DNA from: an uncultured Fibrobacter sp.
GTDB taxonomy: Bacteria > Fibrobacterota > Fibrobacteria > Fibrobacterales > Fibrobacteraceae
Direction of reading: 5' to 3'
NCBI RefSeq assembly: GCF_947166265.1
Contig: NZ_CAMVDO010000020.1
Coordinates: 1-60,010, forward strand
DNA: 60,010 bases
The position numbers and the translations under genes were made by a program. How positions within the stretch are numbered: position 1 is the stretch's first letter; each line of letters begins with the position of its first letter. A model generated the notes under the pieces. That model was not told where the DNA came from. It ran no database searches and saw only the letters and a program-made list of their open reading frames with translations. Shown piece after piece: positions 18,458 through 23,710 of the stretch.

Positions 18458-18772
18458 TTATTTTTTGAATTTCACTGCGGTTCCGTAGGCGATAATTTCT
18501 GCGGAGCCCGCCATTACAGATGCTGTGGTGAAGCGTACGCCTACGACAGCGTCTGCGCCAATGCAACTTGCCTGGGTTTCCATTCGTTCGATGGCAATTT
18601 GACGTGCGTCGTTCAGCATCTCGGTGTAGCCGGCGATTTCGCCACCTACAAGCGTCTTGAGTCCAGCGAAGACGTCGCGCACCACGTTTTTGCTAAACAC
18701 CACGCTCCCGCGCACCATCTGAATGGTTTCGATTTCTTTGCCGGTGATAAAGTCCGTTGTATAGAGTTTCAT
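18458..18772 (-). CDS. YbjQ/UPF0145 family protein
   Basis: A 104-residue protein. The start at 18772 is set by AAGGAG just upstream; the longer frame runs into the palindrome array. MKLYTTDFITGKEIE, GEIAGYTEML and the end GADAVVGVRFTTASV...AYGTAV match the YbjQ fold, a small oligomeric protein of unknown role often linked to metal or envelope stress. Likely co-transcribed with the symporter. Confidence 0.8.
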   Translation of the reverse strand: MKLYTTDFITGKEIETIQMVRGSVVFSKNVVRDVFAGLKTLVGGEIAGYTEMLNDARQIAIERMETQASCIGADAVVGVRFTTASVMAGSAEIIAYGTAVKFKK

Positions 18773-18863
18773 AATTTCTCCTTGTTGTGATAATATAAAA
18801 AAAACGTTTTGTGGTGGATTGCAAGGGGGTAGATATTGTGAGAAAATGGCTTTTTTCGCGTTT

Positions 18864-19075
18864 GGGACATATAAAAATGGTTTTGAAGGGTGTTTTATAT
18901 GCCCTTTTGTAGTTTGTATGTGTCGAAAATGAGGTGCTTTGGAGTGTGAGGGCATATAAAAAGGGGCTTTGTGCTGAATTTATATGCCCCATTGAAGCCC
19001 GTTTGCTGCTATGTTGATGCTTTGGGGCGTCGAGGGGCGTATAAAATGCTTGATTTTGCCGACTTTATATGCCCC
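18864..19075. repeat. Array of three evenly spaced palindromes (GGGCATATAAA ... TTTATATGCCC)
   Basis: Three inverted repeats with near-identical arms: 18864-18904, 18950-18990 and 19034-19075. Arms are GGG(A)CATATAAAA / TTTTATATGCCC, GGGCATATAAA / TTTATATGCCC and GGGGCGTATAAA / TTTATATGCCCC. Centres are about 86 and 85 bp apart; the inner loops (~17-18 nt) and the 43-45-bp spacers differ in sequence. It fills the 397-bp gap between the divergent ybjQ and FISUMP genes, which otherwise holds no gene. Confidence 0.85.
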
Positions 19076-19169
19076 ATGCTTTGTTTTGGCATGTTTAATT
19101 GGGCGCAATCCCTCTCGAATAAATTAAATTTTCTATGAAAATTCATTTTTTAGGGATAACGGAGATTTT

Positions 19170-19904
19170 ATGAAGAGTAGTAACGTCATTGCGAGATTTG
19201 TTGCGAAGCCTGCCATGAGCGGAGCGTGGTGGTGGCAATCTCTAGTTGCGTTTCTTGTTGTATTCCTTGTCGCTTGCAGCGGCGACGGTTCCTCGAGTGC
19301 TGCAAACGGAAATTCTGACAATTCTAGCAACAGCGATTCTGGCAACGGTGCCAACAGCGAATACGATGCTTCCTCGAATACCCTCAAGGACTCGCGCGAC
19401 GGCAAGGCTTACAAGACCGTGAAAATCGGCGATCAAGTCTGGATGGCGGAGAACCTTGACTATGAAACGGGAAACGCAGTCTGCGGCGAAAAGGAATATA
19501 TGACCTTGTTCGGTTGCCTTTATTCCTGGGACGAAGCGAAGACCGTATGCCCCGGTGGTTGGCATTTGCCGAGTCAGGCCGAATGGAATACGTTGATTGA
19601 ATTTGTCGGGGATTCCTCGACGGCAGGGAAGATTCTCAAGGCCACGAATACCTGGAGCGATAAAGGGCATTACAAAGACGGCACCGACGATTACGGCTTT
19701 ACCGCGTTACCTGGCGGCGTGCGCCTTCCGCAACGGGGCAAGACGCATCAGTCGTTTGTCAGTTCGGGAGCCTTTTTCTGGAGTGCCACCGAGGTCGATG
19801 ACGACGAGTCAATCACCTTGGTTTTGCGTTACGAAAACGATGCAGCAACATTGTTCGAAAACTACAAGGACGCCGGTGTCAGTGTCCGCTGCGTGAAGAA
19901 TTGA
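19170..19904 (+). CDS. FISUMP-domain lipoprotein (Fibrobacter major paralogous family)
   Basis: A 244-residue lipoprotein. GGAG precedes the ATG. Residues 1-25 (MKSSNVIARFVAKPAM...WWWQS) are encoded by a REP-like repeat, then comes the hydrophobic signal core and lipobox LVAC, a Ser/Asn/Gly linker (about 33-70) and the FISUMP domain: DSRDGKAYKTVKIGDQVWMA, LDYETG, LYSWDEAKTVCPGGWHLPS, DYGFTALPGG, FFWSATE and VRCVKN at the end. The domain is widespread as surface-exposed paralogues in Fibrobacter and is related in shape to FGE-like C-type lectin folds; its ligand is unknown. The long N-region before the signal core is unusual. Confidence 0.9.
   Translation: MKSSNVIARFVAKPAMSGAWWWQSLVAFLVVFLVACSGDGSSSAANGNSDNSSNSDSGNGANSEYDASSNTLKDSRDGKAYKTVKIGDQVWMAENLDYETGNAVCGEKEYMTLFGCLYSWDEAKTVCPGGWHLPSQAEWNTLIEFVGDSSTAGKILKATNTWSDKGHYKDGTDDYGFTALPGGVRLPQRGKTHQSFVSSGAFFWSATEVDDDESITLVLRYENDAATLFENYKDAGVSVRCVKN
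19184..19245 (+). repeat. REP-like repeat spanning the signal-peptide start of the FISUMP gene
   Basis: CGTCATTGCGAG at 19184 and GGCAATCTCTAG at 19234-19245 are the two ends of the repeat type also found in trpCF; here ~38 bp separate them. It lies between the start codon and the hydrophobic core of the signal peptide. Confidence 0.75.
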
Positions 19905-23268: not shown

Positions 23269-23394
23269 GCGGTTGGCTTGTGGGTATAAAAAAACAGCCC
23301 AACTTGCGTTGTGCCGTTTTTATACCCTGTATAGCGGTTGGCTTGTGGGTATAAAAAAAAACAGCCCAACTTGCGTTGTGCTGTTTTTATACCC
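23269..23394 (-). terminator. Tandemly duplicated terminator of tRNA-Glu copy 1
   Basis: Two ~60-bp copies (23269-23327 and 23334-23394) of GCGGTTGGCTTGTGGGTATA + A-run + CAGCCCAACTTGCGTTGTGC. Read on the minus strand each forms CAGCaCAAC-gcaa-GTTGgGCTG followed by 7-9 T. The outer GGGTATAAA / TTTATACCC arms make each copy a palindrome. The first base pairs of the right copy overlap the tRNA 3' end. Confidence 0.75.
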
Positions 23395-23462
23395 CCAAGC
23401 GGTTTCGAACCGCTGTTGCGGGAATGAAAATCCCGAGTCCTGGGCCACTAGACGATAGGGGC
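23390..23462 (-). tRNA. tRNA-Glu(TTC), copy 1
   Basis: 73 nt without an encoded CCA. The acceptor pairs GCCCCTA with TGGGGGT (two wobbles); D-arm CTAGTGGCCCAGGAC; anticodon stem CGGGA-TTTTCAT-TCCCG with anticodon TTC; T-arm AGCGG-TTCGAAA-CCGCT. The D-arm sequence is typical for tRNA-Glu. Confidence 0.95.
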
Positions 23463-23476
23463 GATTTGTGCGACCA

Positions 23477-23504
23477 AATATAGGAAAGTTTTTTAATCCG
23501 TCAA
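23477..23504 (-). promoter_or_regulatory. Promoter of tRNA-Glu copy 1
   Basis: On the minus strand: TTGACG (23504-23499), 16-nt spacer, TATATT (23482-23477). Confidence 0.75.
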
Positions 23505-23557
23505 GGGGTGTTTTAATCTTTTTTTGAGGGGGAGGGGGCGCGGTTGCTCGTGGATGC

Positions 23558-23590
23558 AAAAAAAGAAACCAATCTTTTGATTGGTTTCTT
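23558..23590 (-). terminator. Terminator of tRNA-Glu copy 2
   Basis: A 12-bp perfect stem AAGAAACCAATC / GATTGGTTTCTT with TTTT loop; A-run on the left becomes the U-tract on the minus strand. Confidence 0.88.
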
Positions 23591-23593
23591 TCG

Positions 23594-23666
23594 TACCCCC
23601 AAGCGGTTTCGAACCGCTGTTGCGGGAATGAAAATCCCGAGTCCTGGGCCACTAGACGATAGGGGC
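23594..23666 (-). tRNA. tRNA-Glu(TTC), copy 2
   Basis: Identical in sequence to copy 1 over 73 nt, 204 bp away, but with its own promoter and a different terminator. Confidence 0.95.
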
Positions 23667-23681
23667 GTTTTAGTAGGGCCA

Positions 23682-23710
23682 AATATAGGTAAAGAATAGA
23701 AAGCCGTCAA
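23682..23710 (-). promoter_or_regulatory. Promoter of tRNA-Glu copy 2
   Basis: On the minus strand: TTGACG (23710-23705), 17-nt spacer, TATATT (23687-23682). Confidence 0.78.

Follow-up and report, generated by a model that had tools for sequence, protein, structure and literature searches.

The window, i.e. the whole stretch of 60,010 nucleotides of Fibrobacter DNA that was analysed, contains three inverted repeats between a ybjQ-like gene and a gene for a Fib_succ_major (FISUMP) lipoprotein, both of which flank the repeats without belonging to the system described here (Table 1). Each unit is 40 bp long and consists of conserved arms of 11-12 bp around a variable loop of 18 bp. A previous sequence-only reading of this DNA had already noted three palindromes with shared arms of this length and differing loops. 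The even spacing noted there also stood, with a start-to-start distance measured as 85 and 85 bp instead of 86 and 85 bp. A search for the 11-mer TTTATATGCCC with up to one mismatch led to six matches in the window, every one inside the array, compared to a mean of 0.76 and a maximum of 4 in shuffled sequences (n = 100). One copy of an asymmetric second motif was detected as well; its match of 6.6 bits is weak, and the array's best hit lies elsewhere. A related design had also been suspected around two tRNA-Glu terminators, but the GGGTATAAA/TTTATACCC arms found there (23269-23400) differ in geometry, span about 50-60 bp in total and belong to a duplicated tRNA/terminator unit. The duplicated unit is about 205 bp long; the two tRNA-Glu genes at 23269-23692 have terminator hairpins that are near-identical.

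Table 1. Features of the window array, its flanks and the corresponding empty sites in two relatives.
Feature	Position	Strand	Remarks
ybjQ-like gene	18458..18772	-	flanks insertion, outside the system
Inserted segment with entire array, ~303 bp	18803..19105	.	ends +/- few bases; without counterpart at collinear sites of L160 and L158
Palindromic unit 1	18865..18904	.	GGACATATAAA-N18-TTTATATGCCC
Asymmetric second-motif copy AGTTTGTATGTGTCGAA	18911..18927	+	consensus AgTTTGTaTGtAATTT; centre 34.5 bp from unit 1 centre
Palindromic unit 2	18950..18989	.	GGGCATATAAA-N18-TTTATATGCCC
Palindromic unit 3	19035..19074	.	GGGCGTATAAA-N18-TTTATATGCCC
Fib_succ_major (FISUMP) lipoprotein gene	19170..19904	+	flanks insertion, outside the system
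Empty site of window array in L160	9916/9917		
Empty site of window array in L158	6692/6696		

When the whole 3.77-Mb genome (G000) was searched for paired 10-base arms with an exact gap of 20 bp, 43 strand hits were obtained, and none with the reversed control pattern. Including one unit with a 19-bp gap, this corresponds to 23 units in nine intergenic loci and none elsewhere. The sites thus form clusters with a fixed internal geometry. Single scattered copies without preferred spacing, which would have refuted the sequence-only reading, are not what the genome shows. The other eight arrays adjoin unrelated genes (lptD, purA, LytR_C-rsfS, aroE, a DUF4423 gene, a porin/NUDIX pair, a sigma factor and ilvD), at least one of them in a convergent setting. 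As no common functional theme was found among these neighbours, a regulon of the flanking genes was rejected. DUF4423 is a weak candidate for the binding protein, with only four arrays adjacent to the 114 such genes in four genomes. These TIGR02147-like genes are abundant, at 21-35 per genome in G000, G018, G030 and G033. Loops are not near-identical between any two arrays of this genome; recent copying has thus left no sign, and given such dissimilar loops a long persistence of arrays under selection is also needed. The first linkers of the 85/85 arrays are alike (0.44 vs 0.31 in a phase-preserving control), a likeness to which both the shared motif and descent may contribute.

The same intergenic region was compared in relatives, the check proposed together with the idea that the array binds a regulator of the two divergent genes. 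In Fibrobacter RGIG6529 (L160) and Fibro_02 (L158), collinearity with the window extends to either side of the array, and 303-304 bp are missing; no clear target-site duplication was found at the window junctions. Absence of the array from two relatives with identical gene order, together with eight further arrays beside unrelated genes, argues against control of the flanking genes as its purpose, while the notion of a protein-binding array was retained. An effect on neighbouring promoters may exist.

With a covariance model of the unit, such arrays were recovered from further genomes of the genus and from none of 24 genomes tested outside it. In a set of 128 units from 45 loci of nine genomes, the inner gap of 20 bp is identical in 119 units, and the 83 centre-to-centre spacings (63-64, 74, 84-86, 94-96, 105, 126-128, 137 and 159 bp) are multiples of about 10.55 bp, with a resultant length of 0.946 at 10.55 bp; the 17 distinct spacings alone beat all 20,000 random draws. 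The 85-bp period, from which sites on one face of the helix had been suggested, thus generalises beyond the window. In addition, the A/T content oscillates at 10.5 bp and keeps its phase for about 95 bp outward from the terminal units, reaching 98% (0.98) at position +31 outside them. Many arrays carry the asymmetric motif in one of their linkers, where about 35 bp separate its centre from that of a unit. At the purA locus of four species the spacing of 95/85/95 is identical to the base, with sequence identities of 86-99% for the arms, 32-51% for the loops, 41-50% for the linkers and 29-36% for the outer flanks. Duplications of 190-200 bp with preserved helical phase were seen inside the arrays of L082 and L101. 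Spacings on multiples of about 10.55 bp and phased A/T tracts point to the array as a DNA-protein structure, and its geometry would be the expected trace of protein-bound, wrapped DNA.

Arrays of the same build but with other arms occur in other genomes, namely ATGCATATAAA, TGGGTATAAA, GTACCTATAAA/GGACCTATAAA and RGCATATAAA. A search for the TATAA core in eight genomes without TATAAA arms gave no arrays, and an arm-agnostic scan revealed more families without a TATAAA core (TGATGGACCAAA, GTGATACCAAA, TTTACATACTAA and TTGTGACTAAA), with a single chance hit over 1.16 Mb in its mirror control. The arms are species-specific and completely different between close relatives, and amount to about 20 sequences at the gene loci described below.

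Comparison of the neighbours of arrays with different arms led to one recurring gene, whose product of about 273 aa is unannotated and PD-(D/E)XK-like. The copy in this genome is located at C2:138444-139262, with an array on one side and a FISUMP gene on the other, divergent from purA. Over its C-terminal 110 aa, the protein matches PDC-S68 from PADLOC, in the nuclease-like domain of the latter (E 7e-24), while no model for the partner was found in Pfam or NCBIfam and no sequence relative among solved structures. SKSE, PDF and WEHFG motifs are conserved in the alignment and a canonical (D/E)xK lysine was not identified; with WEHFG as third active-site motif, catalysis is uncertain. The nuclease-like domain is also part of AAA/helicase proteins on plasmids. 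Neither viral contigs (for the entire protein) nor viral and plasmid collections (for whole-length relatives, besides one gut fragment) gave a relative, and phage records gave a single fragment with 29% identity. A distant homolog from the human gut (L296, MT839528.1; 29% identity) has no visible array upstream.

The partner gene is present in 49 of 80 genomes of the genus, with up to eight paralogs, and a phased array adjoins it in 68 of 70 homolog loci, adjacency being defined as up to 900 bp upstream or up to 700 bp downstream of the gene. The array is usually upstream, and at some loci on both sides; such an array-gene-array layout was seen in L290, L308, L309, L310, L334 and L337. The same scanner reported arrays in 20 of 400 random 2.4-kb windows, in one of 27 gene-less purA loci and, as mirror control, at 11 of 70 gene loci. 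Of the 80 genomes, 23 have both TATAAA-type arrays and the close gene family, 2 only the gene, 5 only the array and 50 neither (Fisher 4e-13, without correction for phylogeny). Arrays without a detected gene were found in G013, G021 and G095, of which the first two are incomplete assemblies.

Protein alignment showed that a stretch of seven residues in the partner (LR-x7-QYY) co-varies with the arm sequence. The HK-type stretch (QPHKKSF) goes with GGGGCRTATAA arms, DKCRQSY/DRCRNSF with GTACCTATAAA, ITNHNRP/IRNHNSL with TTACATACTAA, GMNHGRP with TTACGGACTAA and the RGN-type with TGGG arms. For 119 protein pairs with C-terminal parts more than 75% identical, which are not independent of each other, the partial rank correlation with the arm was 0.82 for the stretch vs 0.006 for the remainder of the protein. 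Proteins sharing arms and stretch sit in separate branches of the tree, and at the same site beside purA, L275 differs from L272 and L274 by exchange of both stretch and arms, with a C-terminal part 97% identical. As a prediction, TTACATACTAA units were sought and found in all 12 genomes whose gene-linked array has these arms (2-35 units each, the maximum of 35 in G006), in none of seven genomes without a close homolog and also in six of 13 other genomes. G028 is counted with them because its own TTACGGACTAA arms lie within the three mismatches allowed, whereas G078, G019, G067, G061 and G098 have such units without a recognised matching gene. G000 itself has two genes of this prediction set, including a TTACATACTAA-type paralog at C2:87920, and two TTACATACTAA hits. 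Genomes with arrays and no recognised matching gene (G013, G021, G095, G078, G019 and G067) might be explained by incomplete assemblies, relics or trans-acting paralogs. Overall, the co-variation strongly suggests that the partner protein binds the arms.

Further empty sites concern either the array alone or gene plus array. The difference between L224 and L184 is an array only, 283 bp long and from another arm family, with a 9-bp near-duplicate, and L103 differs from L139 by 1532 bp carrying gene and array. At the same spot, L275 compared to L139 has gene and array of a different family, with a 10-bp near-duplicate. Target-site duplications are imperfect and confined to these two near-duplicates; no shared terminal sequence of the insertions and no more empty sites among additional array loci were found. 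As empty sites exist for the array alone and for gene plus array, gain or loss concerns the array as a whole, alone or together with the gene. At the array-distal end of the gene-bearing insertions (L103 right of 5225, L275 right of 2283), a 10-11-bp repeat, e.g. ATTTTGCGCGGC, with phased A/T was observed.

We observed phased array geometry, gene-array linkage, co-variation of stretch and arms, and precise presence or absence of arrays, and consider it likely that they reflect a two-component repeat system of Fibrobacter, composed of a palindrome array in cis and a PD-(D/E)XK-like protein in trans. Such a two-part repeat system seems to have gone unrecognised so far; in the open-access part of the literature, to which the search extended, no earlier description was found. 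The cis component would be an array of two to five palindromic 40-bp units with species-specific 11-12-bp arms on one side of the helix, set in phased A/T tracts that would permit wrapping of the DNA. The trans component would combine a variable N-terminal part, including the recognition stretch, with the C-terminal nuclease-like domain, and would be encoded next to an array of matching specificity. The protein is predicted to bind the arms with one half-site per subunit, and neighbouring units may be bridged to give a wrapped complex. If the nuclease domain helps to copy or insert arrays elsewhere, the gene-linked array would be the home copy, from which the other arrays of this genome, roughly eight, derive; binding, cutting and active movement of arrays are putative activities of the protein. 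As part of this explanation, which we favour as a whole, the window array is probably a dispersed, gene-less member of the GGGGCRTATAAA family, with G000:C2:138444-139262 as the gene of the family. Whether this amounts to a new repeat or mobile class, in which a small PD-(D/E)XK-like protein reads helically phased palindromes via seven fast-evolving residues, wraps about 300 bp in a nucleosome-like manner and spreads gene-less arrays, with protein-arm pairs as a natural recognition code, appears evenly balanced to us.

Instead, the arrays might be regulatory, with the PD-(D/E)XK-like protein or another factor as a transcription regulator that is autoregulated via its own array and has the dispersed arrays as regulon. 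We regard this as unlikely, as the neighbours lack a shared theme, convergent cases occur, arrays are precise insertions at some sites, arms of close relatives differ completely and the partner bears a nuclease-like domain, although helical phasing and the mostly upstream array of the partner gene would fit, as would the finding that 41 of 44 classified arrays precede at least one gene (three being convergent, from rough gene calls) and that four of 34 arrays are 150-215 bp upstream of DUF4423 genes. Chromosome-organising sites that wrap strongly around a general topoisomerase or nucleoid protein would be in line with the phasing, since the 130-bp DNA gyrase motif of E. coli also has a dyad with A/T-G/C flanks phased at 10.5-10.75 bp (PMC6379681), similar to the array dyads with their 10.5-bp phased A/T-G/C flanks. 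For gyrase, however, strictly conserved, species-specific 12-bp arms, some 20 arm families and a linked cognate gene with a matching stretch are unexpected, and many Fibrobacter genomes lack any TATAAA-type array, which makes this quite improbable. Slightly less probable still is a defence or self/non-self system, in which the arrays would mark self or act as decoys towards a sequence-specific nuclease: the domain shared with the PADLOC candidate and a fast arm turnover suggestive of an arms race stand against array-free genomes that lack the protein, rather than the reverse, few and intergenic sites and the near-absence of viral and phage relatives noted above. RNA hairpins, whether terminators or structured RNA, are hardly credible despite complementary arms, since a U-tract is absent (as the sequence-only reading had already remarked in setting ordinary terminators aside), an Rfam search gave no match, loop length is fixed with loop sequence free, and an RNA hairpin would not obey the DNA helical repeat to which the spacing is quantised, while phasing and purA conservation fit protein-bound, wrapped DNA.

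The two-component repeat system would tie a widespread, unnoticed repeat to an unannotated protein family. A DNA-recognition code is directly testable with about 20 protein-arm pairs that occur naturally, one natural swap among them, and the phased arrays provide a bacterial model of sequence-programmed DNA wrapping.

Among known elements, a resemblance of the arms to XerC/dif was discarded, as the central spacer of the units is too long. MITEs share the ~300-bp insertion, precise empty sites and larger gene-carrying relatives, but the Fibrobacter arrays have internal phased palindromes and no DDE transposase, and neither terminal inverted repeats nor shared ends were found for them. The candidate defence proteins of PDC-S68 have the C-terminal nuclease-like domain of about 110 aa in common with the partner; their models comprise about 1200-1270 residues, with the match at the C-terminal end, whereas the partner is small, stand-alone and equipped with a recognition stretch. 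Closest is REPIN-RAYT of Pseudomonas and E. coli, where intergenic palindromes are dispersed in tens to hundreds per genome, each repeat type has a gene of its own that is accompanied by these repeats, repeat and protein co-evolve and short non-autonomous insertions occur (PMC3116915). Likewise, the Fibrobacter palindromes are dispersed and intergenic, with the copy numbers given above, and each repeat type is specific to and found beside its partner gene, with arms that track the stretch. RAYTs, however, are Y1 HUH transposases acting on hairpin DNA, while the PD-(D/E)XK-like partner is unrelated to them, gave no Y1 domain in Pfam, NCBIfam and PHROGs scans, and is linked to 40-bp units with long arms, in arrays that occur in few copies and act as double-strand sites with helical phasing. 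Because the defining transposase is absent, the system was kept out of REPIN-RAYT; it may represent a second, independent invention of this type of arrangement, which would reveal general features of long-lived repeat-protein partnerships.
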